A stretch of 64,000 bases of DNA from Myxococcus stipitatus (GTDB lineage: Bacteria; Myxococcota; Myxococcia; Myxococcales; Myxococcaceae). Shown piece by piece: positions 18,268 through 40,612 of this stretch; the first letter of the stretch is position 1; the number at the start of each line of letters is the position of its first letter. Below the pieces are notes generated by a model. It did no database searches and was not told the origin of the DNA. It saw nothing but the letters and a program-made list of their open reading frames with translations. The stretch is from contig NZ_CP147913.1 in the NCBI RefSeq assembly GCF_037414475.1, positions 9,744,501 to 9,808,500 on the forward strand, in the 5' to 3' direction. Made by a program: the position numbers and the translations under genes.

Positions 18268-19959
18268 GTGATTCTCCAGGACCTCAATCGTGTGCGGCAG
18301 ATCACCGTCATCGCGGCCCGCCATGGCTTTGGCGAGGTCCTGGAGCGCGCGGGCCTCTGGCGCATCCTGGGGCGCAAGGAGAAGGTGGAGGTGTCGCCGG
18401 AGGCGCAGCGTGCGTCCACGGCGCGCCGCTTCCGGATGCTCCTGAACGACCTGGGGCCCACGTTCGTGAAGCTGGGCCAGGTGTTGTCCACGCGGGCGGA
18501 CCTGTTGCCCGCGGAGTTCATCGACGAGCTGTCGTTGCTCCAGGACAACGTGGACCCCATCCCGTTGGAGCAGGTGCACGCGCAGATTCGCGAGTCGCTG
18601 GGCAAGGACGCGAAGGAGTTGTTCAAGCAGATCGACGAGGTGCCGCTGGCCGCGGCCTCCATCGCCCAGGTGCACCGCGCGGTGACGCTGGAGGGTGACG
18701 AGGTGGTGGTGAAGGTGCAGCGGCCAGGCATCGCCGCGAACATCGACTCGGACCTCGCGGTGTTGCGCAACCTGGCGCGGCTGCTGGAGGCGGTGGTCGA
18801 GGAGACGGGCATCTACACGCCCACGGGCATCGTCGACGAGTTCGACCGGGCGATTCACGAGGAGTTGGACTTCGTCAACGAGGCGACCAACGTCCGGGCG
18901 TTCCTGGAGAACCACCGGGAGCGGCCCTACCTCAAGATTCCGAAGGTGTACTCGGCGCTGTCCAGCCGGACGGTGCTGACGTTGGAGTTCATCCGCGGGG
19001 TGAAGATCAACCAGGCGGAGCTGTCGGACGAGGACCGGAAGACGATTGCGCAGCACATCCTGGAGGCGAGCTTCCGGCAGCTCTTCGACGACGGGTTGTT
19101 CCATGGGGACCCGCACCCCGGAAACCTGTTGTTGTTGGAGGGTAACCGGCTGGCGCTGCTGGACTTCGGCATCGTCGGGCGGCTGTCGCGGCCGATGCAG
19201 GAGACGCTGGTGATGTTGTGCCTGGCAGTGGCGCTGAAGGACAGCGACTCGGTGGCGCGCATCCTCTACCGGGTAGGCGTGCCGGACGCGCGGGCGAACC
19301 TGGTGGGGTTCCGCAACGACATCGAGGGAATTCTCGGGCAGCACCTGCCGACGACGTTGGGACAGGTGGATACACGTTCGTTGCTGCGGGACTTGTTGGA
19401 CCTGGCGGTGAAGTACCGCATCCGGATTCCGAAGGAGTACGCGATTCTGAGTCGGGCCTCGGTGTCGACCGAGGGGATGCTGCGCAGCCTGTATCCGGAG
19501 ATGAACATCATCGAGGTGGTGCTGCCCTACGCGAAGGAGTTGCTCGCGGGGCGGTATGACCCGATGCAGTTGCAGGGCGGGCTGATGCGCACGCTCTTGC
19601 GGCTCCAGTCGATGGCGGCGGACCTGCCGACGCAGCTGTCGCAGATCCTGCTCGACATGGAGTCGGGCAAGTTCACCGTGACGGTGCGGGCGGACCAGTT
19701 CGAGAAGCTGAACGAGAACCTGCGCAGCGCGGCGGTGATTGCGTTCATGGGGCTGTGCGCGTGTGGGTTCATCGTGGGCGCGTTCATCTCGTTCGCGCCC
19801 AAGCCGTGGATGTACGGGAACATTCCGGTGCTGGGCGCCGTGGGAATCGCGCTGGCGGCGGGCCTGTTTGGCGCGGCCATCACCTGGTACCTCTTCGGCG
19901 GACGCGGACTTGGCAAGGTGCGGCTGAGCCGGTTCTTGAAGGCGCCGAAGCGCAAGTAG
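18268..19959 (+). CDS. ABC1/UbiB-family atypical kinase
   Basis: A 563-residue ABC1/ADCK/UbiB protein. The family-specific KLGQ motif is at residues 68-71 (VKLGQVLSTRADLLP), the alanine-rich nucleotide loop (AAASIAQVH) comes near 130, and the catalytic region FHGDPHPGN and LLDFGIVGRL lies near 280-300. Two membrane helices close the protein (about 495-550), as in UbiB-like ubiquinone-biosynthesis helpers. These proteins are ATPases supporting quinone/isoprenoid lipid metabolism, at the inner membrane. The start is GTG 18268 with GAGGAG about 17 bases upstream, so a slightly different start is possible. It is in line with nhaA and a glutathione peroxidase gene. Confidence 0.9.
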   Translation: MILQDLNRVRQITVIAARHGFGEVLERAGLWRILGRKEKVEVSPEAQRASTARRFRMLLNDLGPTFVKLGQVLSTRADLLPAEFIDELSLLQDNVDPIPLEQVHAQIRESLGKDAKELFKQIDEVPLAAASIAQVHRAVTLEGDEVVVKVQRPGIAANIDSDLAVLRNLARLLEAVVEETGIYTPTGIVDEFDRAIHEELDFVNEATNVRAFLENHRERPYLKIPKVYSALSSRTVLTLEFIRGVKINQAELSDEDRKTIAQHILEASFRQLFDDGLFHGDPHPGNLLLLEGNRLALLDFGIVGRLSRPMQETLVMLCLAVALKDSDSVARILYRVGVPDARANLVGFRNDIEGILGQHLPTTLGQVDTRSLLRDLLDLAVKYRIRIPKEYAILSRASVSTEGMLRSLYPEMNIIEVVLPYAKELLAGRYDPMQLQGGLMRTLLRLQSMAADLPTQLSQILLDMESGKFTVTVRADQFEKLNENLRSAAVIAFMGLCACGFIVGAFISFAPKPWMYGNIPVLGAVGIALAAGLFGAAITWYLFGGRGLGKVRLSRFLKAPKRK

Positions 19960-27181: not shown

Positions 27182-29155
27182 ATGCGTTTATTCCATGGGA
27201 GTGTAGTGCTGCTGACAGTTCTCTTTGGGGGCTGCAAGAGGGAGACCAGCACGCCGGGCGAGGTCCGGGTCTTCATCTCGTACTCGAGCTTCCGGCCGAA
27301 GTGCCTGACGCTCTCCGTGGAGGACACCCGGGACGTCTCGAACAGAGGGTTTACCGAGGTGAAGGTCGCGCCCGACGCGCGCCAGACCGACACGCTCACG
27401 GGCACCCTCCTGGAGCACAAGGGATGGAGTCGGGATCTACGGCTGATGGCCGAAGCCCGCGAGGGTTCGTGCGCCGGGCCCGTCATCGCGCGACAGGCTG
27501 GAGACCTTCGCTTCCCGACCGAGGGCACCACGGACATCACGCTGGAACTGCGCGCGGTGGACCAGGATGACGATGGCTACTTCGCGATGAAGGGGGCCTT
27601 GCCGGGCACGGACTGCGATGACAGCCGCGCGGATGTCCACCCGGGGGCCGTCGAGCGCTGCGACGACATCGACAACAACTGCGTCGCGGGAACGAGCGAT
27701 GAGCCCGAGCAGGCTCCGGTTTGGGTTGATGCGGATGGCGACACGTACGGTGACGCCAGGCAAGCACCGACCCAAGGGTGCGGAGCACCTTCTTCAGGTG
27801 CCGCACTGAGAGGGGGCGACTGCGACGACACGAACAGCGCCATTCATCCCGGGCAGGCGGAGCTCACCTGCGATGGCAAGGACGACAACTGCAACGGCAT
27901 CCCGGACGATGCCCCGTTCAACATCGGCGGCACTTGTGAAACGGCGCAGCGCTGCTCGGGCCTCATGGCTTGCAGCGGCACCACCGCATCCGAATGCATC
28001 AGCACCGAGGTGCCCGTTCCCTACTACGTGGACGACGACGGAGATGGGAACGCCGGGCTGATGGTCGGCAATGCATGCCAGGCTCCTGAAGCAGGTGCGA
28101 CGCGTGAACTCACCGACTGCGATGAGGGAACGACGCTGGCATCGCGCGCCATCGGCAGGACCGAGGTTTGTGACCGGCTGGACAACGACTGCAATGGCGC
28201 TACCGACGATGGGCTCGCGGGGTGCGCCACGGTGCCGTGGCGCCAAGACACGCCAACGGTTTCTGGGACCCCTCGCTTCGACGCGGTCGCTACCTACGCG
28301 AAGCGGCGCGGCTGGCTCGCGGGCGAAGCCAAGGTGGTTCACGTCAACGACACCGCCTTCACGACCACCGCGAACTGCGACAGCGGTGCGGACTGGAAAT
28401 CGGCCTGGGCAGCCAGCCAGGGGCGCGTGTTCCTGGGCTCCAATAATGGCCAGTTTGGAACCTTGATCCCTGGCGGCGAAGGAAGCCCCTGTGAGCTGCG
28501 AGCGAGCGGCTTCACCGCATCCATCAATGGACTGACGGGCTTCGAGGAAGCCAACGGCAACATCATCCTGTACGCCGTCACCAGCCAGGGCCGGATTCTC
28601 CGCTGGAGGTACGTCCCCGGCGCGCCGAGCCAAGAGGCCCCTGTCGAAGTCACCCAAGTGGCAGCCAACCTACGTGCCATCCATGGGGTGAGCCCTGAGA
28701 CAATGATCGCGGTGGGCGCGGAGAATGTGGGTTCGCAGCAACGGCCCGTGGCCTTTCACGCTCCAGCGACGGGCACGACATGGAACCGTGAAGAGCTGGG
28801 CGTCCCCAACGCAACGGGGTTCCTGCATGGAGTCCGAGTGCTGACACCTCGACTGGCCTATGTCGCGGGCGACGACGGGCTATTGCTTGAGAAGGCTCGC
28901 GACAGCTGGACTCAGAAGCAGGCCCTGACGCTTCCCGGCGGCAGCCGCCCGACCATCCGGTCCCTCGCGGCATTTGGTCGCACAGCCATCTACGCTGTGT
29001 CCTCGGGCACCAACGACATCTACTTCTTCAACGGCGCCGCATGGAGCAGCGTCGCCACGCCGTCACAGACGCTCACCGCCCTGGGAGGCTCGGGCCCAGG
29101 TGATGTCTGGGCCGTTGGTCACACCAGCACTCTTCTTCGCTGGACACCGCCGTGA
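27182..29155 (+). CDS. MopE-type metal-binding-motif lipoprotein, copy 1
   Basis: A 657-residue lipoprotein; the lipobox is LLTVLFGGC with Cys18. Residues about 20-120 form a beta-rich domain. About 125-360 carries repeated calcium/metal-binding motifs of the MopE type, visible as DxDxDGY...DCDD...HPGAxExCDxxDNNC in three copies (one includes DDNCNGIPDDAPF), rich in Cys pairs. The rest (about 370-657) looks like a beta-propeller with repeating 'WAASQGRVFLGS', 'ILYAVTSQGRILRW' and 'GPGDVWAVGHTSTLLRW' blades. Probably surface-exposed and binding metal or a partner. No enzyme motif. ATG 27182 chosen for the signal peptide. Paralog of the next gene. Confidence 0.82.
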   Translation: MRLFHGSVVLLTVLFGGCKRETSTPGEVRVFISYSSFRPKCLTLSVEDTRDVSNRGFTEVKVAPDARQTDTLTGTLLEHKGWSRDLRLMAEAREGSCAGPVIARQAGDLRFPTEGTTDITLELRAVDQDDDGYFAMKGALPGTDCDDSRADVHPGAVERCDDIDNNCVAGTSDEPEQAPVWVDADGDTYGDARQAPTQGCGAPSSGAALRGGDCDDTNSAIHPGQAELTCDGKDDNCNGIPDDAPFNIGGTCETAQRCSGLMACSGTTASECISTEVPVPYYVDDDGDGNAGLMVGNACQAPEAGATRELTDCDEGTTLASRAIGRTEVCDRLDNDCNGATDDGLAGCATVPWRQDTPTVSGTPRFDAVATYAKRRGWLAGEAKVVHVNDTAFTTTANCDSGADWKSAWAASQGRVFLGSNNGQFGTLIPGGEGSPCELRASGFTASINGLTGFEEANGNIILYAVTSQGRILRWRYVPGAPSQEAPVEVTQVAANLRAIHGVSPETMIAVGAENVGSQQRPVAFHAPATGTTWNREELGVPNATGFLHGVRVLTPRLAYVAGDDGLLLEKARDSWTQKQALTLPGGSRPTIRSLAAFGRTAIYAVSSGTNDIYFFNGAAWSSVATPSQTLTALGGSGPGDVWAVGHTSTLLRWTPP

Positions 29156-29642: not shown

Positions 29643-31613
29643 ATGCGTCTATTCCATGTGAGTGTGTTGCTGCTGACAGTTCCCCTCTGGGGCTGCAAGC
29701 GTGAGTCCAATTCCACCGAAGGCGTCCTCCGGGTCTTCATCTCGTATTCGACCTTCCGGATGAAGTGCATGAAGCTCATCGTGGAGGATCCGCAGGATCC
29801 CTCGCGCCGGGCCGCGGTCGACGTGACAGGGACCCAGGACGAATCGAGCGGCACGCGCACGGGCATCATCCTGGAACAGAAGGGATGGGGCCGGAACCTG
29901 CGCGTGACGGCGGAAGCCTACGAAGCCTCGTGCGATGGCCGTGTCATCGCGCGCCAGGTCGAGGAGGCGCGGTTCCCAGAGAAGGACGTCACGGACCTCA
30001 CGCTGGACCTGCGCGCCGAGGACCTCGACAACGATGGCTACGTCGCGATGAAGGGGGCACTCCCGGGTACGGACTGCGACGACACGCGCGCCGACATCCA
30101 CCCCGGAGCGACCGAGCTTTGCGACGGCGTCGACAACAACTGCGTCGCGGGCGAGAGCGACGTGGACGGCAACGTTGCCTATTGGGTCGATGCGGATGGC
30201 GACTCCTATGGTGACGCCAAGACTGCGCCGAAGTTTGCTTGTGGCGCGCCCCCAGGTGCCGCACTGAGAGGGGGCGACTGCGACGACACGAACAGCGCCA
30301 TTCATCCCGGGCAGGCGGAGCTCACCTGCGATGGCAAGGACGACAACTGCAACGGCATCCCGGACGATGCCCCGTTCAACGTGGGCGGCACCTGTGAAAC
30401 GGCGCAGCGCTGCTCGGGACTCCTGGCGTGCAGCGGCACCACCGCATCCGAGTGCATCAGCACCGAGGTGCCCGTGCCCTACTACGTGGACGAAGATGGA
30501 GATGGGAACGCCGGGCTGGTGGTCGGCATTGCCTGCCAGCCCCCCGAAGCAGGTGCGACACGTGAACTCACTGACTGCGATGAGGGGACTGCGCTGGCAT
30601 CGCGCGCCGTCGGAAGGGTCGAGGTTTGTGACCGGCTGGACAACGACTGCAATGGCGCCACCGACGACGGACTCGCGACATGCGCTTCGGTGCAGTGGCG
30701 GCAAGACACGCCAACGGTTTCTGGGCCCCCTCGATTCGACGCGGTTGCCACCTACGCGAAGCGGCGCGGCTGGCTCGCGGGCCAAGAAAAGGTGGTACAC
30801 GTCAATGACGCTGCTTTCACGGTTGCCACGAACTGTGACGGTGGTGGGGACTGGAAATCGGCCTGGGCCGCCAGCCAGGGGCGCGTGTTCCTGGGCTCCG
30901 GCAATGGCCAGTTTGGAACCCTGGTCCCAGGCGGAGAAGGCAATCCCTGCGAGCTGCGAGCGAGCGGCTTCGCCGCATCCATCAATGGACTGACAGGCTT
31001 CGAGGAAGCCAACGGCGACATCATCCTGTACGCCGTCACCAGTCAGGGCCGGATTCTCCGCTGGAGGTATGTCCCCGGTGCGCCGAACCAAGAGGCCCCC
31101 GTCGAAGTCACCCAAGTAGCGGCCAACCTTCGCGCCATCCATGGCGTGAGCCCTGAGACCTTGCTCGCGGTGGGCGCGGAGAATGTGGGCTCGCAGCAAC
31201 GGCCTGTGGCCTTTCACGCTCCGGCGACGGGCACGACATGGATTCGCGAAGAACTGGGCGTCCCCAACGCCACGGGGTTCCTGAATGGAGTCCGAGTCCT
31301 GACGCCTCGACTGGCCTATGTCGTGGGCGAAGACGGACTGTTGCTGGAGAAGGCCCGCGACACCTGGACTCAGAAGCTGCGCCTGACGCTTCCCAACGGG
31401 AGCCGCCCGACCCTCCGCAGCCTCGCGGCATTTGGTCGCACGGCCATCTACGCTGTGTCCTCGGGTACCAACGACATCCACTTCTTCAACGGCACCTCAT
31501 GGAGCACCGTCACCACACCGCCCCAGACAATCAACGCCCTAGGAGGCTCGGGCCCTGGTGATGTCTGGGCCGCTGGTCACAGCGCAACTCTTCTTCGCTG
31601 GACGCCGCCGTGA
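29643..31613 (+). CDS. MopE-type metal-binding-motif lipoprotein, copy 2
   Basis: A 656-residue paralog of the preceding gene with the same plan: lipobox VLLLTVPLWGC with Cys18, beta-rich N-terminus, three MopE-type DxDxDGY...DCDD...CDGxDNNC motifs, then a propeller-like C-terminal half. Differences cluster in the first 200 residues (for example VVLLTVLFGG against VLLLTVPLWG, and several substitutions in the first metal motif), whereas the second motif and the propeller are nearly identical. It ends 18 bases before the first gene of the MCE transporter operon. Both copies lack frameshifts, so both are probably expressed. Confidence 0.82.
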   Translation: MRLFHVSVLLLTVPLWGCKRESNSTEGVLRVFISYSTFRMKCMKLIVEDPQDPSRRAAVDVTGTQDESSGTRTGIILEQKGWGRNLRVTAEAYEASCDGRVIARQVEEARFPEKDVTDLTLDLRAEDLDNDGYVAMKGALPGTDCDDTRADIHPGATELCDGVDNNCVAGESDVDGNVAYWVDADGDSYGDAKTAPKFACGAPPGAALRGGDCDDTNSAIHPGQAELTCDGKDDNCNGIPDDAPFNVGGTCETAQRCSGLLACSGTTASECISTEVPVPYYVDEDGDGNAGLVVGIACQPPEAGATRELTDCDEGTALASRAVGRVEVCDRLDNDCNGATDDGLATCASVQWRQDTPTVSGPPRFDAVATYAKRRGWLAGQEKVVHVNDAAFTVATNCDGGGDWKSAWAASQGRVFLGSGNGQFGTLVPGGEGNPCELRASGFAASINGLTGFEEANGDIILYAVTSQGRILRWRYVPGAPNQEAPVEVTQVAANLRAIHGVSPETLLAVGAENVGSQQRPVAFHAPATGTTWIREELGVPNATGFLNGVRVLTPRLAYVVGEDGLLLEKARDTWTQKLRLTLPNGSRPTLRSLAAFGRTAIYAVSSGTNDIHFFNGTSWSTVTTPPQTINALGGSGPGDVWAAGHSATLLRWTPP

Positions 31614-31631: not shown

Positions 31632-32330
31632 ATGGACCTTCGCGCGAACGCCCTGACGGTGAGGCATGGTGCGCGAACGGTCCTCTCGGATTTGAGCTGT
31701 GAGCTCCCGCCCGGAACGCAGGCGCTCCTGCTCGGGCGGTCCGGCGCGGGGAAGACGACCCTGCTGAAGTCACTGGCGGGGCTCGTCACTCCATCCCGAG
31801 GCCATGTGACCTGGGACGGACAGGACGCGGCGCACCTGTCCTCCGCGGATCGGCGCGCGCGGCAAGCGGCGTTCGGGATGGTCTTCCAGACCGACGCGCT
31901 GTTCGACTCGCTCACGGTCCGCCAGAACGTCCTGTTCCCACTGACCCGCCGCCACGTCCCCACCGCCGAGGCGGAGGCACGCGCGGATGAAGTGCTCCGC
32001 GCGGTCGGACTGGAAGCCGCCGCGGACACCCTTCCGGAACGGCTGTCCGGAGGAATGAAGAAACGCGCGGGCATCGCACGAGCCCTGGCGGCGAAACCCT
32101 CCGTGCTGCTCGCCGATGACCCTTTCGCGGGGCTCGACCCGGGAACAGCCCGGCAGGTCGCTCGCGTGCTGCTCGACGTTTCCCGAGGTGGCACGCTGAT
32201 CGTCGCCGCTCCCGAGGCACCGCTGGATCTCCCCCTCCCCCGCTGGCTCTATCTGCGCGGCGGACAGCTCATCCACGACGGCCCTCCCGCCCCCGCGCTG
32301 GAGCACGAACGTGACGAGGCGCTCGCATGA
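31632..32330 (+). CDS. MlaF-like ABC ATPase, subunit A (degenerate catalytic site)
   Basis: A 232-residue ABC ATPase of the MCE/Mla lipid-transport type. Walker A is GRSGAGKT (35-42), the Q-loop glutamine is Gln86, and the signature LSGG is intact (138-141, LSGGMKKR). But the Walker B/catalytic pair reads ADDP (161-164), with Asp163 where Glu is expected, and the switch histidine is replaced (LIVAAPE, Ala193). It therefore probably cannot hydrolyse ATP in its own site yet can supply an intact signature to a partner. The fourth gene of the operon encodes that partner. Its stop overlaps the permease start by four bases. Confidence 0.88.
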   Translation: MDLRANALTVRHGARTVLSDLSCELPPGTQALLLGRSGAGKTTLLKSLAGLVTPSRGHVTWDGQDAAHLSSADRRARQAAFGMVFQTDALFDSLTVRQNVLFPLTRRHVPTAEAEARADEVLRAVGLEAAADTLPERLSGGMKKRAGIARALAAKPSVLLADDPFAGLDPGTARQVARVLLDVSRGGTLIVAAPEAPLDLPLPRWLYLRGGQLIHDGPPAPALEHERDEALA

Positions 32331-33133
32331 CCTCGTCCCCGCGCACGGCGAACCCGGAGCTGAACGCGATACGCAGCGTGGGAAGCCTGGGCCTCGACGC
32401 GGTCCGAGGCACCGGCGCACTCGCGCTCGTCGCGGCGCGCACGGTCCTGGGCCTTCCTCGCCTGGAGCGGCGCGAGCTGACTCGCGCGCTGGTGCAGTTC
32501 GGCTACGACTCCCTCCCCCTCGCCATGGCCACGGCGGCGCTCGCGGGCGTCATCGTCGTGCTGCAATCGGGCCTCTACATCCAGCGCTTCGGCGCGCGAG
32601 CATTCCTCGGATGGGCCTCGGGCTACGGAGTGCTGTGGGAGTTCGGCCCCCTGCTGCTCGGGCTCATCATGTCCGCGCGCATCGGCGCCAGAAACGCGGC
32701 GGAGCTCGCCACCATGCAGGTGGGCGGACAGATCGAGGGCCTGCGCGGAATCGGCCTGGACCCCTTCGCCATCCTCGTGGCGCCGCGAGTGGTGGCCATG
32801 GAACTGAGCATGCTCGCGATGAGCACGTTCACGTTCCTGGTCGCCATCCTCTTCGAGTCCGTGGCCGCCCTCTTCACGCTCGACCTCCCCCTGCGGACCT
32901 TCTTCGGAACGTTCTCACACATGCTCAGCCCGCTGGACATCGCGGGAGGCGTGGTGAAGACGGGGGTCTTCGGCCTCGCCATCTCACTGGTGTCCACGGC
33001 GGTGGGCCTCTCCGCGAGAGGTGGCGCCCAAGCCGTGGGCCGAGCGGCCGCGAGCGCCGTGGTCCAAAGCTGCGCCGCCATCTTCGTCCTCGACTTCCTG
33101 CTCACGCTCCTGCTCGCGGGGTGGATGGCATGA
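32327..33133 (+). CDS. MlaE-family permease, subunit A
   Basis: A 268-residue membrane protein of the MlaE family with about five to six helices. The family core is clear: ATAALAGVIVVLQSG, EFGPLLLGLIMSARIGARNAAELATMQVGGQIEGL (split in two conserved stretches) and LVAPRVVAMELSM. In MCE systems it forms the inner-membrane channel that delivers lipid to or from the MCE ring. The start overlaps the upstream ATPase gene and its stop overlaps the second permease gene, each by four bases. Confidence 0.92.
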   Translation: MTSSPRTANPELNAIRSVGSLGLDAVRGTGALALVAARTVLGLPRLERRELTRALVQFGYDSLPLAMATAALAGVIVVLQSGLYIQRFGARAFLGWASGYGVLWEFGPLLLGLIMSARIGARNAAELATMQVGGQIEGLRGIGLDPFAILVAPRVVAMELSMLAMSTFTFLVAILFESVAALFTLDLPLRTFFGTFSHMLSPLDIAGGVVKTGVFGLAISLVSTAVGLSARGGAQAVGRAAASAVVQSCAAIFVLDFLLTLLLAGWMA

Positions 33134-33876
33134 ACCGGGTGCTCTCGTTCTTCGGAGCCCCCGTTGTCTTCCTGGTGCGCACGGCACGAGCCGGAGCTCG
33201 CGAGGGCATCTCGTGGCGAGAGTCCATGGTGCAGCTCCATGAACTCGGAGGTCGCAGCGTGTGGCTGGTGATGTCCGGCATGGCGTTCTTCGGCGCCGTG
33301 CTCGTCACCATCGCCAACAGTCAGGCGCGCCGCTTCGTCGGCAACGTCGCGGTGCTCGGCCCGGCCTACTTCGAGCTCCTGGTCCGAGAGCTGGGCCCCG
33401 TGGTCTCCGCGCTGCTCACCGCCTCCCGAGCCGGCGCCGGCCACGCCGCCGAGCTCTCCACCATGAGCGTGAACGAACAGGTGGAAGCGCTCGAGATGTC
33501 CGCGGGAGACCCGTACTCGGACCTGGTGGCACCACGCATCGTCGCGGGGGTCTTGGGAGTGCCGCTGCTCAGCACGCTCGGGACCGTGGCGGCGACGCTG
33601 GCCGCGGTGGCCGTCGCTGGCGTCGTCTTCGGCGTGGATGGGCGAGCCTTCATGGATCCTCGCTATGTCGATGGCTGGGACCTGCTGGTGGCCGCACTCA
33701 AGGCCGGAGCGTGCGGGCTCTACATTCCCCTCGCCGCGGCGGTCGCTGGATTGAGGGCCCGAGGTGGCGCGGAGGCCGTCGGCGCGGCGACCACCGAGGG
33801 CGTGGTGACCGCGAGCCTGGGGTGCCTGTTGATCGACTTCGCCGTCTCCCTCGCCTTCCATCTCCTGCGCTTGTGA
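33130..33876 (+). CDS. MlaE-family permease, subunit B
   Basis: A 248-residue second MlaE-type permease, clearly different from the first: the conserved EFGP-like segment reads ELGPVVSALLTASRAGAGHAAEL, followed by STMSVNEQVEALEM and LVAPRIVAGVLGVP. The usual MlaE protein is a homodimer; here two distinct genes are adjacent and coupled, so a heterodimeric channel is likely. ATG 33130 overlaps the previous stop (ATGA), and its own stop overlaps the GTG of the second ATPase. Confidence 0.92.
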   Translation: MNRVLSFFGAPVVFLVRTARAGAREGISWRESMVQLHELGGRSVWLVMSGMAFFGAVLVTIANSQARRFVGNVAVLGPAYFELLVRELGPVVSALLTASRAGAGHAAELSTMSVNEQVEALEMSAGDPYSDLVAPRIVAGVLGVPLLSTLGTVAATLAAVAVAGVVFGVDGRAFMDPRYVDGWDLLVAALKAGACGLYIPLAAAVAGLRARGGAEAVGAATTEGVVTASLGCLLIDFAVSLAFHLLRL

Positions 33877-34631
33877 ACACGAACAACCCCACCGCCCCGA
33901 GAGAGGACACGCTCCGGTTCACGGACGTGCGCGTCGCGTTCGAACAAGGGCGAAGCGTGCTCGACGGCGTAACCGCGGAGGTGTCCACGCGAGAGTTGAC
34001 GTTCATCGCGGGAGCGAGTGGCTCGGGCAAGAGCGTGCTGTGCCGGATGGCCGTGGGCCTGTTGCGCCCGGACGCAGGAAGCGTGGAGCTGTGGGGCGAA
34101 CGGGTGGACACCCAACCCGAGCGAGAGCTGGTGCGACTGCGGCGTCGAGCCCCCTATCTGGTGCAGGGCCCCGCCCTGCTCGACTGGCGCACGCTACGGG
34201 AGAACGTGCGGCTCGCGGACCCGAGCGCTTCCAATGACGCCGTGGAGTCCGCGCTCAATCAAGTGGGGCTCCTCGAGTGGGCGGACCGATTGCCGCCCGA
34301 GCTGGGCCCTGGTGCCAAGAAGCGCGCGGCCATCGCGCGGGCCCTGGTGTTGAAGCCGCGCTATCTGCTCCTGGACGAGCCCACCACGGGGCTCGACCGG
34401 CGCGCGGCCTCGCAGGTGGAAGCGGTCCTCTCGTCCCTGAAGTCACGAGGGTTGGGGGGACTGGTGGTGACACATGACTACCGCCAGCTCCGTGGACTGG
34501 CGGACCGAGTCCTGGTGGTGGCCCGGGGACGCTGTGCCTATCTGGGTCCCCCCGAAGGTTTCCTGGAGTCCTCCGCGCCGGAGCTGCGGGTGCTGACGGC
34601 GCCGTTCATGGAGGGTGCGACGGATGGATGA
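33873..34631 (+). CDS. MlaF-like ABC ATPase, subunit B (degenerate signature)
   Basis: A 252-residue ABC ATPase. Walker A is GASGSGKS (47-54), the Q-loop glutamine is Gln98, Walker B with the catalytic Glu is LLLDEP (Asp168, Glu169), and the switch histidine is His201 (VVTHD). The signature, however, is degenerate: LGPGAKKR (144-151) instead of LSGGMKKR. Its defects are the complement of those in the first ATPase of the operon. Paired as a heterodimer, this protein would contribute the Walker motifs and the other the LSGG of a single competent ATP site. GTG 33873 overlaps the permease stop. Confidence 0.88.
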   Translation: MNTNNPTAPREDTLRFTDVRVAFEQGRSVLDGVTAEVSTRELTFIAGASGSGKSVLCRMAVGLLRPDAGSVELWGERVDTQPERELVRLRRRAPYLVQGPALLDWRTLRENVRLADPSASNDAVESALNQVGLLEWADRLPPELGPGAKKRAAIARALVLKPRYLLLDEPTTGLDRRAASQVEAVLSSLKSRGLGGLVVTHDYRQLRGLADRVLVVARGRCAYLGPPEGFLESSAPELRVLTAPFMEGATDG

Positions 34632-35634
34632 GCGACGGTTGGAATTGAAGGTGGGCGCCCTGGTGCTGGCCGCGGTGGTGGGCGTGCTGGTGTTGCTGTG
34701 GCTGATGGGAGAGCTGACGTTGGGCTCGACCTCGCTGCTCGCCGTGGACTTCGGGCACACGGGCAACGTGGTCGAGGGTGCGCCGGTGAAGCTCGCCGGC
34801 GTGCAGGTGGGGCGGGTCCAGGCCATCAAGCTGATGCCAGAGCGGAGGGACGCGCGCGGCAAGCCACTGCCCGTGCGCATGGAGCTGGCCGTGGAGCCCG
34901 CGTCGTTGGAGGCGCTGCGAGCGGATGCTCGGGTGACGGTGGCGACCGTGGGGCTCCTGGGCGAGCCGTATCTGGAGCTCAATCCCGGAACACAAGCAGC
35001 CCCGCTACCAGCGGGCGAAGCCCTGCGCGGCGTCGACGCTCCGCGCCTGGACGTGCTCGCGGAGAAGCTCTCCGGCTTCGTGGAGACCATCTCCGCGATG
35101 CTGGAGAAGGACCCGGAGGCGGTGACAGACCTGGTCTCCAACGTGTCTCGGCTGACGCGGACGCTGGATGAGGTGCTCACGGAGAACAAGGGAGATGTGA
35201 AGGTGCTGGCCTCGGAGCTGGCCGCGGCATCGAAGGACTTGAGACAGCTCGCGCAGCTCGCTCGTGAAGCCATGCAACCGGGTGGCAAGGCCGCGAAGCT
35301 GCTCGATGACGCGGCGGCGACGGCGGCCGTCCTGCGAAACGATCTCCCGGGGCTGACGAAGTCCGCGGGGACCACGTTGAATGGCCTGGCGGCCGTCACC
35401 GGCTCACTGACACCCGAGGATGGTCAGCGCGTCAAGCTGGCCCTGGAGAAGCTCACGGCGGCGGCCGGGCAGCTGGATATCATCGCCACCCGGGCGGAAC
35501 GCGTGATGGCGCGACTGGAGGCCGGAGAAGGCACGGCCGGCGCGGTCCTTCAGGACCCCACGCTCTACAACGAGCTGCGCACGCTGGTGACAGACCTGCG
35601 CAAGCATCCCTGGAAGATCCTCTGGAAGGACTGA
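34624..35634 (+). CDS. MCE (MlaD-like) lipid-binding protein
   Basis: A 336-residue protein with one N-terminal membrane helix (about 9-32, LVLAAVVGVLVLLWLMG), an MCE domain right after it (about 38-120: VDFGHTGNVVEGAPVKLAGVQVGRV and LLGEPYLELNPG) and a long helical tail (about 145-320) of the kind that forms a tunnel or anchors the hexamer. It receives lipids in the periplasm and passes them through the permease. Only one MCE gene accompanies two permeases and two ATPases. ATG 34624 with GGAGGG about 12 bases upstream overlaps the previous gene by eight bases. Confidence 0.92.
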   Translation: MDERRLELKVGALVLAAVVGVLVLLWLMGELTLGSTSLLAVDFGHTGNVVEGAPVKLAGVQVGRVQAIKLMPERRDARGKPLPVRMELAVEPASLEALRADARVTVATVGLLGEPYLELNPGTQAAPLPAGEALRGVDAPRLDVLAEKLSGFVETISAMLEKDPEAVTDLVSNVSRLTRTLDEVLTENKGDVKVLASELAAASKDLRQLAQLAREAMQPGGKAAKLLDDAAATAAVLRNDLPGLTKSAGTTLNGLAAVTGSLTPEDGQRVKLALEKLTAAAGQLDIIATRAERVMARLEAGEGTAGAVLQDPTLYNELRTLVTDLRKHPWKILWKD

Positions 35635-35659: not shown

Positions 35660-36472
35660 ATGTCATCACAGTCCCACCCTTCTGACTGGCCCAAGTGGGC
35701 CCAATCCATTCCATCGGAGTCTGGTGAGTACGTGCTCGAGACGGGCGGCACGCATGTGATGGCGTACTACTTCACGCTCCTGTTCTCGCTCGCATGCGGC
35801 CCCACCTACGTGGGCCCCCTGTTGGTCATCTGGTTCTTCTGGGGTCGCTCCGGCAGGTTCCTGCTCACCAGCCACCGGCTCATCTGGAATCCGCACATCG
35901 GGAAGAAGGTCTTCATTCCCCGTGAGGAGTTGCGGGACCTGAAGATTCACATCGGGACGCGGCTGAAGACGGTGAAGTTGCGCGGCGCCCGGAAGCTCAC
36001 GATGCCCTTCCAGTGGTGCTACAAGGAGCTCTGGGGTGGATTGCTCCTGCTTCAACGTTGGCAGCCACCCGCCGCGACGGCGTCGAACCCCGCCTTCGAC
36101 ATCTACCCAGGGGAGCTGGTATCGGGCGCGCGCTACCAGAGTGGTTCGGTGGCCGTGCTGGGAAGCACCGCTCACTTCCTCCCCGAGGAGCCCATGGCGA
36201 ACGTGGCCGCGCAGGCAGGCGCGGCGATGGCCGGCCTCGTGTTGGGCGTCACGTACCGCACGCATCGGGCGCAACTGCCGATCTTCCAAGCGCTCCGCCT
36301 GGTGGCGCGCGCCCGCCCCTTCCAGTCCGAGCTCGAGACCTTGCAGCGAATCGTGGGGGGCGAGACGTTGCAGGGCCCTCCCACCAAGAAGAGCGCCGCC
36401 GGCAAGGGCAGCACCCGCATGACCTATGTGCTGGGTGAACGACAGATTTCCTTCACGGTTTCGGAGGGCTGA
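35660..36472 (+). CDS. Membrane protein of unknown function (bacterial PH-like region)
   Basis: A 270-residue protein. Two hydrophobic segments lie near residues 34-60 (AYYFTLLFSLACGPTYVGPL then LVIWFFW). RFLLTSHRLIWNPHIGKKVF followed by IPREELRDLKIHIG looks like the first strands of a bacterial PH-type domain ('LTxxRLIxxxG...IPxxxIxxI'). The remainder contains an Ala/Gly-rich possible helix near 190-207. No family is certain. It starts 26 bases after the MCE gene and could be cotranscribed. Convergent with the glycosidase-like gene. Confidence 0.6.
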   Translation: MSSQSHPSDWPKWAQSIPSESGEYVLETGGTHVMAYYFTLLFSLACGPTYVGPLLVIWFFWGRSGRFLLTSHRLIWNPHIGKKVFIPREELRDLKIHIGTRLKTVKLRGARKLTMPFQWCYKELWGGLLLLQRWQPPAATASNPAFDIYPGELVSGARYQSGSVAVLGSTAHFLPEEPMANVAAQAGAAMAGLVLGVTYRTHRAQLPIFQALRLVARARPFQSELETLQRIVGGETLQGPPTKKSAAGKGSTRMTYVLGERQISFTVSEG

Positions 36473-37861: not shown

Positions 37862-40612
37862 ATGTTCCGTCGTCTCGTGGTCGTCTTCGATGCCGGCTCG
37901 GAGTCCGAGCAGGTGCTTCACTGGGTCCAACGGCTGACCGCCGTCCCCGAGGCCGTCTATCTGTACGGGCTGGTGCCGGAGCGCAGTGAGCTGGAGGCCC
38001 CTCCTCCCACCAGCCTCACCGTCTTGGACCACCTCCGCCATGCCCTGCATGACTGGGATGCGGGCATCCAGGTGAGCGGCGCGCTGGAGACACATCTCGA
38101 GACCGGCGACCTCGTCCGCGTGGCGACGAAGCACGGCGCGGAGCTGGTTGTCTTCGGCCCGAACCTCGATACGTCGCCGAGAGCCAGGGTGAGCGCCATG
38201 CTCATGCTCTGTCTCCGAGAGCATCTCCCCGTGCTCTCCATTGGCAGAGCGGCCACTCCCTCCGCCCCCTCTCGCACCGCGGTGGCTGTCGCGCCGGATG
38301 GGCGAGGACTTGGCGCTGTGGCCACGTTCCTCTCCCGCTGCGCGGTGCGCTCCGAGCTCATCGCGCTCACCTCCGAGTTGGAGCCCGAGCAGGTCGCGCA
38401 CCTCCAGGCCCTGGGACGGGCACTGGGCATCGAGCAGCTGCTCCACGTCGAAGCCCTCACCGAGAATCCCGCCAACAGCCGCGCCGAGGCCTTCGACGTC
38501 GCGGCGCTGCGCTCGGGCGCGGACCTCCTGCTCGTTCCCGCCGATGCGCTCGCCGACGTGGAGGCGCTGATGCTCGGCCTGTTCGGCGCCAAGGCACTCC
38601 AAGAGGCGCGAGTCCCCATCCTGATGCTGCCTCGCGCGCAGGCCACCTCCGCGATGTTCGAGGACCACTACGCGGTCTCCGACTCCCTCACGGCCCCGGG
38701 TCTTGCCCCACGCTTCGCCGTCGAACGCGTGGGCTTCATGTCGAGCGTCTCCGTGCCCGAACCCGGAGACCTGACGGTCTTCGAGGGCGGAAGCACCTTG
38801 GGCCAAGGCAGGCACCAAGGCGGCACCGCCGTCCTCGAATCCTCCTGGCTCACCCACGCGCAGGGACAACACGCCCTCGCGTTCGCCTTCGCCGGCGTCG
38901 ATGCCCCCAGGGACCTGACGCCCTGCTATGTGCTGGCCCCAGAGAAGCCCGTGCTCCTCGTGGACAGCCTGGTGGACGACGAGACACTCGACGCGGTCCA
39001 GGCCCTGGCCTCCGAGCGCTACCACCTGGTCTTCGTGAGGCTGCGCGACAGCGATTCTCTCGACGAGCAACGGGTCCGCCTGCGGGAGCGGCTGCCCGAG
39101 GTCCCCTGGCCGCTTCTCCTCGACGCCAGCGCCTGGCTCGATGACGCACGCGCGGACGACGTCCCCCGACAGGTCGACGGCCAGCGGCTCCTCCGCGTGG
39201 CGACCCGCCTCGCCGCCGGACACATCCCCATCGCCGCCGTCCTCACGCGGGATGCCTACAAGCCCGTCCATCCGCACGTTCGCACACTGAGCCCCGAGGA
39301 GTGTGTGGCCCTCTCCCGGACGACGCCCTTGGAGCCGCTGCCCATTCCGCATGAGGTGGGAGCCTGTGCACGAGCACTGGTGCTCGCCGGGAGCGGCCCC
39401 CGGCTGGAAGGCCATGACATCGACTTCGAGCTCGACAACCGGCTCGCCCGAAAGTCCCTCCTGGCCGCCATCGACTCGGCGCGGAGCACCATCCATTGGC
39501 AGTGCTACATCGTCGAGGACGACCCCATCACCGCGCGCATCACCGAGGCGCTGAAGCGTGCCGCCGCGCGAGGCGTGCGCGTGCGCTTCCTCGCGGATGC
39601 GCTCTACAGCGGTCATGACTCCTTCGGCTCCCTCAACCCCGCGCTCGTCTCCCTGTCACAGACGCCCTCGGTCGAGGTACGTGCCATCGCGCCGCTCGTG
39701 GGGGTCCCGAGCCTCTCCGAGCTCAAGCAACGCAATCACCGCAAGCTCACCGTCATCGACTCCGCCCAGGCCTTCGTCTCGGGGCGCAACCTCGGCGCGC
39801 CCTACTACACGGGCTTCGACGAAGTGGCGCTGAAGCACGACACGCCCTACCGGGACATCCCCTGGCTCGACTGCGGCGCGAAGCTGAAGGGCCCTCTCGT
39901 GGGTGACCTCGAGCGTGCGTTCCTCACCGAATGGACCCGCGCCGGAGGCGAGCCGTACGCGGTCTCCGTGCCTCCTCCAGCGGGAGCGATGGCGGCCAGG
40001 CTGGTCCTCCACGAAGGACTCCGTGACACACACACGCTCGACACCCAGCTCGCGCTCATCCGGCATGCGCGCTCGCGGCTCGTGCTGGTGAACACCTTCC
40101 CGCTGCTGCTCGAGCTCCAGAACGCGCTCATCGCCGCCGTGCGCCGAGGCGTGCGCGTGGAGATTCTCTTTGGCAGCGTCCGCCCTCACCACGGCGCGGC
40201 GCGGACGTACTTCCCCGGTGGAGCCTTGCGCGAAGTGGCGGACCACTACGTGCGCAGCCGGCTGGATGCGGTCATCGAAGCGGGCGCCATCGCCTACGAG
40301 CTGGCGCTTCCCATCTTGCCCACCTGGGAGGCGGCGCTGGAGCAGCTCTCTCCCCATGTCCACGCGAAGATTCTCGTCTGCGACACCACGGCGGTCGCGG
40401 TCGGCAGCGCGAACCTGGACGTCACGGCCGCCTATTGGGAGAGCGAGGCCCTGCTCCTCGTCGAGGACTCCCCGTTCGCGGAGCGGATGCTCGGGGCCCT
40501 GGAGCCACTCTTCGCCACCTCGCGCCGCATCGACCGCGAGGACTCACGCTGGCGCGATGAAGTCGAGCAACGTGCGTGGGTGGGCCGCAACTGGCCCTCA
40601 CTCGTCGGCTGA
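37862..40612 (+). CDS. Universal stress (UspA-like) – phospholipase D fusion protein
   Basis: A 916-residue fusion. Residues about 1-250 hold two UspA-like alpha/beta repeats (LVVVFDAGSESEQVLHWVQR, GDLVRVATKHGAELVVFGPN; then ALRSGADLLLVPADAL). A middle region (about 270-490) has no recognised domain. The last 400 residues are a cardiolipin-synthase/phospholipase D module with both HKD motifs: His626-x-Lys628-x4-Asp633 (NHRKLTVID) and His834-x-Lys836-x4-Asp841 (VHAKILVCD), plus GSANLD. It probably moves or hydrolyses phosphodiester headgroups, but some HKD proteins are nucleases. No signal peptide or membrane segment is visible. It is 12 bases upstream of the Dbr1-like gene. Confidence 0.85.
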   Translation: MFRRLVVVFDAGSESEQVLHWVQRLTAVPEAVYLYGLVPERSELEAPPPTSLTVLDHLRHALHDWDAGIQVSGALETHLETGDLVRVATKHGAELVVFGPNLDTSPRARVSAMLMLCLREHLPVLSIGRAATPSAPSRTAVAVAPDGRGLGAVATFLSRCAVRSELIALTSELEPEQVAHLQALGRALGIEQLLHVEALTENPANSRAEAFDVAALRSGADLLLVPADALADVEALMLGLFGAKALQEARVPILMLPRAQATSAMFEDHYAVSDSLTAPGLAPRFAVERVGFMSSVSVPEPGDLTVFEGGSTLGQGRHQGGTAVLESSWLTHAQGQHALAFAFAGVDAPRDLTPCYVLAPEKPVLLVDSLVDDETLDAVQALASERYHLVFVRLRDSDSLDEQRVRLRERLPEVPWPLLLDASAWLDDARADDVPRQVDGQRLLRVATRLAAGHIPIAAVLTRDAYKPVHPHVRTLSPEECVALSRTTPLEPLPIPHEVGACARALVLAGSGPRLEGHDIDFELDNRLARKSLLAAIDSARSTIHWQCYIVEDDPITARITEALKRAAARGVRVRFLADALYSGHDSFGSLNPALVSLSQTPSVEVRAIAPLVGVPSLSELKQRNHRKLTVIDSAQAFVSGRNLGAPYYTGFDEVALKHDTPYRDIPWLDCGAKLKGPLVGDLERAFLTEWTRAGGEPYAVSVPPPAGAMAARLVLHEGLRDTHTLDTQLALIRHARSRLVLVNTFPLLLELQNALIAAVRRGVRVEILFGSVRPHHGAARTYFPGGALREVADHYVRSRLDAVIEAGAIAYELALPILPTWEAALEQLSPHVHAKILVCDTTAVAVGSANLDVTAAYWESEALLLVEDSPFAERMLGALEPLFATSRRIDREDSRWRDEVEQRAWVGRNWPSLVG

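Follow-up and report, generated by a model that had tools for sequence, protein, structure and literature searches.

In the 64,000-nucleotide stretch of Myxococcus stipitatus DNA analysed here (the window; assembly GCF_037414475.1, contig NZ_CP147913.1, positions 9,744,501 to 9,808,500 of the forward strand), an operon of five genes very probably encodes a heteromeric ATP-binding cassette (ABC) transporter of type VIII (MlaFE/Mce-like), in which two different ATPases, A and B, pair as a heterodimer that has a consensus ATP site and a degenerate one. The five open reading frames (ORFs) lie in one direction with stops and starts that overlap, as a preliminary description made from the sequence had stated, by 4, 4, 4 and 8 bp, in the order ATPase A, permease A, permease B, ATPase B and MCE protein (Pfam ABC_tran, MlaE, MlaE, ABC_tran and MlaD, respectively):

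31632-32330, plus strand: ATPase A, an MlaF/MceG-type nucleotide-binding domain (NBD), 232 amino acids, assigned from Pfam ABC_tran, motifs, an AlphaFold2 (AF2) model and fold matches.
32327-33133, plus strand: permease A (paralogue PA), MlaE family, 268 amino acids (PF02405, 8.6e-53).
33130-33876, plus strand: permease B (paralogue PB), MlaE family, 248 amino acids (PF02405, 7e-45).
33873-34631, plus strand: ATPase B, 252 amino acids, GTG start, assigned from Pfam ABC_tran, motifs, an AF2 model and fold matches.
34624-35634, plus strand: MCE protein, 336 amino acids (PF02470, 1.4e-14).

In NBD dimers, each ATP is enclosed by the Walker A and Walker B motifs of one subunit together with the signature contributed by its partner. 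ATPase A has an intact Walker A (GRSGAGKT, 35), Q86, signature (LSGGM, 138) and D-loop (GLDP, 167), together with a Walker B that reads ADDP (161-164), with Asp163 in place of the catalytic Glu; when ATPase A is aligned with E. coli MlaF, Pro194 occupies the position of the switch His (VVVSHDV versus IVAAPEA). The preliminary description had reported the kept LSGG, the Asp for Glu and the loss of the switch His, all of which stand, although the residue that it named for the latter, Ala193, is one position too early. ATPase B, in agreement with that description, carries LGPG (144-147) in place of LSGG, as LGPGA for LSGGM, and has an intact Walker A (GASGSGKS, 47), Q98, DEP with Glu169, D-loop (GLDR) and His201. 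The AF2 models of the single chains are both confident ABC NBD folds (predicted local distance difference test, pLDDT, 92.6 for A and 93.4 for B); the best fold matches in the PDB, obtained with Foldseek, are MceG 8fed and MlaF 6xgz/6xgy for ATPase A and MlaF 6xgy and MceG 8fed for ATPase B, with template modelling (TM) values of 0.84-0.90 against MlaF structures, and profile searches with either protein place MlaF first among single-domain chains. The sole PDB sequence matches of the two permeases are MlaE and YrbE chains. The MCE protein shows a hydrophobic N-terminal segment, a single MlaD/MCE domain (39-122) and a long C-terminal part, and its matches to TIGR00996 and TIGR04430 remain below cut-off. 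The components that define an MCE/Mla-type (type VIII) ABC transporter, that is, an MlaE-family permease, an MlaF/MceG-like NBD and an MCE-domain protein in the operon, are all present.

The heterodimer is supported by the distribution of the motif losses among related loci, which were gathered via permease homology, blind to the ATPase motifs, from 195 Myxococcota genomes, from the GTDB contig collection (80 loci, with a 7-sequence permease alignment as query) and from 192 genomes of the Bdellovibrionota, the phylum of a Bdellovibrio sp. locus (L227). With E. coli MlaF as the alignment reference, the ATPases were scored at Walker A, Q-loop, signature, Walker B, D-loop and H-loop. There are 113 loci (94 of the Myxococcota set and 19 of the Bdellovibrionota set) that have both ATPases adjacent to a permease pair, and in 112 of these A has an intact LSGG and has lost the Glu, the His or both, and B has lost the signature and kept the Glu. 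The switch His is also intact in every B of these loci except two that run off contig ends, and nearly all A and B sequences retain Walker A, Q-loop and D-loop. The lost residues differ from locus to locus, yet they always share one composite site, where the Walker B and H-loop of A face the signature of B, and the opposite composite site, made of the Walker motifs and His of B and the signature of A, is complete throughout. The closest relatives of the M. stipitatus locus mostly combine DDP with a lost His in A, and many of the GTDB-contig loci have an A with SSD and the Glu kept, or with DDP and the His kept; the signatures of B include LGPG, VGPG, LGDG, LSDG, ISYG, LSFG and others. In the Bdellovibrionota (L293-L311, L227), the ATPases are likewise complementary, with [IL]S[YF]G as the lesion of B and a gene order of A, B, two permeases and MCE.

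The location of all lesions in one composite ATP site, which characterizes a degenerate site, is accordingly found at the M. stipitatus locus and in 112 of the 113 loci, and the earlier proposal that the Walker motifs of B and the signature of A build one complete site, the other being broken, is borne out to the same extent. Both motif losses co-occur in the two phyla, and no homologue with two complete ATPases, the case that would have spoken against the proposal, was found among the 113 two-ATPase loci. The five-gene order recurs in Myxococcota, although as merely one of several arrangements. Controls are provided by the single-permease loci, in which the ATPases are complete in 36 of the 36 that could be scored. 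The host genome, a single contig of 10.3 Mb, carries its own symmetric controls, since MlaE occurs there at four places, the PA/PB pair and two single-permease systems, and the ATPases of the latter two are complete (L001, LSGGM/DEP/SHD; L002, LSGGM/DEP/THD). It contains three MCE genes, one for each MlaE system. In five of the related loci (L036-L038, L042 and L062), one or more genes are inserted between PA and PB or between PB and B, splitting the operon; in another (L169, CAMDBH010000072.1), a permease closely resembles the Myxococcota PB and the record, titled 'MAG: Klebsiella pneumoniae', is probably a mislabelled bin.

The losses in A may alternatively reflect the neutral decay of a duplicated gene, without functional asymmetry. 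In favor of this explanation, parts of the tree show long branches for A, which evolves faster there than B, and the lost residues vary by lineage. Measured against eight relatives, the ratio of non-synonymous to synonymous substitution rates (dN/dS) of A is, however, 0.07-0.15, close to the values of the neighbouring genes, which indicates a maintained protein and, together with the identical partition of lesions in the 112 loci, argues that the motif losses exceed chance. Random decay would moreover strike all motifs, whereas the signature of A and the Glu of B are never hit, and the pattern of lesions has been retained in two phyla. Among 59 A sequences, at least nine changes between Glu and non-Glu and at least four between His and non-His can be counted, both residues being kept in only one of the 59, and the switch His is replaced by S, N, P, A, T or G; this repeated replacement, combined with a strictly kept signature that acts in trans, makes neutral decay a poor and, in our estimate, highly improbable explanation.

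Trees of the subunits point to the same partition at a deeper level. In a tree restricted to 111 MCE-type ATPases, from which the columns of the signature, the Walker B Glu and the H-loop had been taken out, the A sequences of Myxococcota and Bdellovibrionota form one clade (99/93) and the B sequences of both phyla a second (100/97). The permease tree divides in the same way, PA grouping with the first permease of the Bdellovibrionota (d1; 99/93) and PB with the second (d2; 99/96), and canonical MlaE being set apart (100/81). Since each of these clades joins both phyla, the four-subunit heteromer either predates the split of the lineages or moved between them early. The paired permeases had been cited in the preliminary description as a pointer to a heteromer, and the parallel split of the paralogues supports that argument, although a permease pair by itself is not new, as actinobacterial YrbEA/B illustrate.

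A second alternative is that A and B belong to different transporters, or that homodimers of each take turns on one set of permeases, as the lack of linkage between them in several genomes could suggest. Several loci consist of PA, PB, B and MCE without an adjacent A. In six genomes without A at the locus (G187, G189, G190, G193, G194 and G010), an A-type ATPase is encoded elsewhere in the genome, with LSGG or ISGG, DEP or DDP, and SND, SNE or STD; in Sorangium cellulosum So0157-2 and a Polyangium, A is also away from the locus and has LSGG, DEP and SSD. In three small genomes (G158-G160; L068-L070, L096, L099, L101, L122, L124 and L126), the permease pair, A and B are found at three separate places, and the lesions of A and B are complementary despite this separation, the signature of B being [LMA]S[AS]GD. 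The genes upstream of PA in L068 and L070 were considered as very divergent forms of A and rejected, as by eye they resemble pyrroline-5-carboxylate reductase, and the true A and B lie elsewhere. Against separate transporters, neither homodimer would have a complete site, the lesions are complementary in all scorable unlinked pairs as they are in the 112 linked ones, and the trees of A/B and PA/PB split in parallel; very little probability is therefore left to this explanation. Natural fusions of A with B, or of either ATPase with a permease, from which the pairing of the subunits could be read, were sought and none was found.

A third possibility is that B is the sole working ATPase, in a B-B homodimer with a tolerated variant of the signature, and that A is a regulatory or scaffolding pseudo-ATPase outside the NBD sandwich. 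Lone-B loci were examined as candidates for such functional homodimers by searching their genomes for A, which was present in all those examined except one, and the remaining genome (G191), with its B-containing locus and no recognisable A, favors this possibility, as does the location of A in some genomes far from the permeases and beside an ABC1/UbiB kinase, where a regulator might be expected. On the other hand, LSGG, Walker A and D-loop of A are intact at practically every locus and A is under purifying selection, and a signature matters only in trans across the NBD dimer, so that its strict retention in A, where the Glu and His have been lost, indicates that A faces B. The signature of B is, in addition, always lost, which would not be expected to be tolerable in two identical B subunits. 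The B homodimer is consequently considered unlikely, though less so than either of the two preceding explanations.

Several observations weigh against the A/B heterodimer with one degenerate site, or limit it. One linked pair (L075, G164), the sole one with a complete A (LSGG, DEP, GHE), combines it with a B bearing VGPG, and may serve as a useful natural test case. The draft genome G191 (L088; also L102 and L114), rated 100% complete, has B (LGPG) beside the permease pair, and as no recognisable A was found in this genome it is kept as a real exception. Deviant signatures and Glu-to-Asp replacements can keep some ATPase activity, and a 'dead' site is for this reason a prediction. The contact between A and B is predicted from sequence pattern, conservation and phylogeny, and the ATPase tree is compatible with a single duplication as well as with an early transfer between the phyla.

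As in MlaFEDB of E. coli, A. baumannii and P. aeruginosa, MlaE-family permeases, MlaF-like NBDs and an MlaD/MCE protein are encoded in one operon; in MlaFEDB, however, MlaE and MlaF are each a homodimer (PMC7367683, PMC10094684), as the preliminary description had correctly stated for known Mla systems, and the operon described here differs in having two paralogues each of the permease and the ATPase. It has no MlaB or MlaC gene; MlaC-family matches are found at two places of the host genome, both unlinked to the operon, and no MlaA match was found in that genome, the single one checked. With two permease and two ATPase genes, an unlinked MlaC and no MlaA found, the operon falls outside Mla sensu stricto (MlaFEDB-C-A). 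Mce1 combines a heterodimeric YrbE1A/YrbE1B permease and an MCE tunnel of six different MCE proteins with a homodimeric, shared ATPase, MceG (PMC9882608); actinobacterial Mce1 is similar in its two different MlaE-type permeases, a likeness that implies no orthology of PA/PB to YrbEA/B, and differs from the operon, in which a single MCE gene accompanies two ATPases whose lesions are complementary.

The closest parallel for the ATPases is found in an unrelated fold. In the heterodimeric exporters TM287/288 and BmrCD, one NBD carries Asp instead of the catalytic Glu as well as a non-canonical switch motif, and its partner carries a deviant signature; their degenerate site holds nucleotide firmly, with little hydrolysis, and maintains contact between the NBDs (PMC4046567, PMC5216877). 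It is by the same three lesions that the degenerate site of TM287/288 is defined, one composite site being complete; these exporters, however, have a type IV fold and fused halves of transmembrane domain and NBD, whereas the operon has MlaE-family permeases, separate NBD genes and an MCE partner. By analogy, the operon would work like the heterodimeric exporters without being a member of that group. A literature search that left preprints and most subscription papers outside its reach yielded no description of an MCE system with an asymmetric pair of NBDs.

From these comparisons, the following scheme may be proposed for the assembly, stoichiometry, catalytic cycle and cargo of the transporter. 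PA and PB would form a membrane heterodimer, and ATPases A and B a head-to-tail NBD heterodimer; as there is a single MCE gene, the MCE protein would be expected to form a periplasmic-side ring, probably a homohexamer, on a heteromeric ABC core. Site 1, comprising the Walker A of A, the Asp for Glu, the position of the lost His and the LGPG of B, is predicted to bind ATP and to hydrolyse it poorly or not at all, whereas site 2, comprising the Walker A/B and switch His of B and the LSGG of A, is complete and is predicted to hydrolyse ATP. Since comparable lesions in TM287/288 and BmrCD accompany a degenerate site with tightly bound nucleotide, an asymmetric cycle may be envisaged, in which one ATP would be used per turnover and the nucleotide at site 1 would hold the NBDs together. 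The cargo would most likely be a phospholipid or another membrane lipid, passed between the inner membrane and the MCE conduit.

If this scheme is correct, MCE transporters should not be assumed to be symmetric engines. The lopsided NBD design is old and conserved in two phyla, in contrast to the pair of identical ATPases found in every described relative. It occurs in an unrelated kind of transporter fold, and the same genome often encodes close symmetric relatives. These natural controls, together with the repeated replacement of different catalytic residues in A, make the role of a degenerate site testable by comparison, and the operon offers a lead on the passage of lipids across the envelopes of myxobacteria and Bdellovibrionota.

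A second set of observations concerns a gene upstream of the operon:

18268-19959, plus strand: ABC1/UbiB-type atypical kinase, 563 amino acids (PF03109), 11.7 kb upstream of A.

Proteins of the UbiB/Coq8 type have coenzyme-Q and lipid-handling roles, and full-length members of the ABC1/UbiB family number only three in the host genome. Of the 91 A genes that have 1.2 kb or more of sequence upstream, 20 are preceded within 1.5 kb, on the same strand, by a PF03109 gene; all 20 belong to the Myxococcota set of the genome search, and none was seen among 45 A genes of GTDB contigs or six of Bdellovibrionota with enough flank. The kinase gene recurs immediately upstream of A at L049, L055, L062, L063, L067, L071, L074, L096, L099, L100, L101, L103 and L111, some of them loci with A apart from the permeases. 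In 6 of 11 further relatives, a kinase homologue is found within about 20 kb upstream. As 7 of the 11 unlinked A genes have a PF03109 gene upstream, the kinase tracks A and not the permeases. A functional link between kinase and transporter is plausible, the kinase being regarded as an associated gene without implied membership of the complex. At about even chances, this MCE branch, old enough to extend over Myxococcota and Bdellovibrionota, may have evolved an obligatory asymmetry of its NBDs separately from the type IV exporters, and the ABC1/UbiB kinase that accompanies the degenerate subunit A may act on the transporter or together with it, in a hitherto undescribed kinase-associated lipid pump that would use one ATP per cycle.

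Other genes close to the operon are the following:

27206-29155 and 29664-31613: two tandem paralogues of 649 amino acids with MopE-type putative copper-binding motifs (PF11617).
35660-36472, plus strand: ORF of 270 amino acids after the MCE gene, without a Pfam match.
37862-40612: single chain combining a phospholipase-D-like domain with a weak match to universal stress proteins.

The second MopE-type paralogue ends 18 bp before ATPase A, and similar genes occur near the operon in several relatives.

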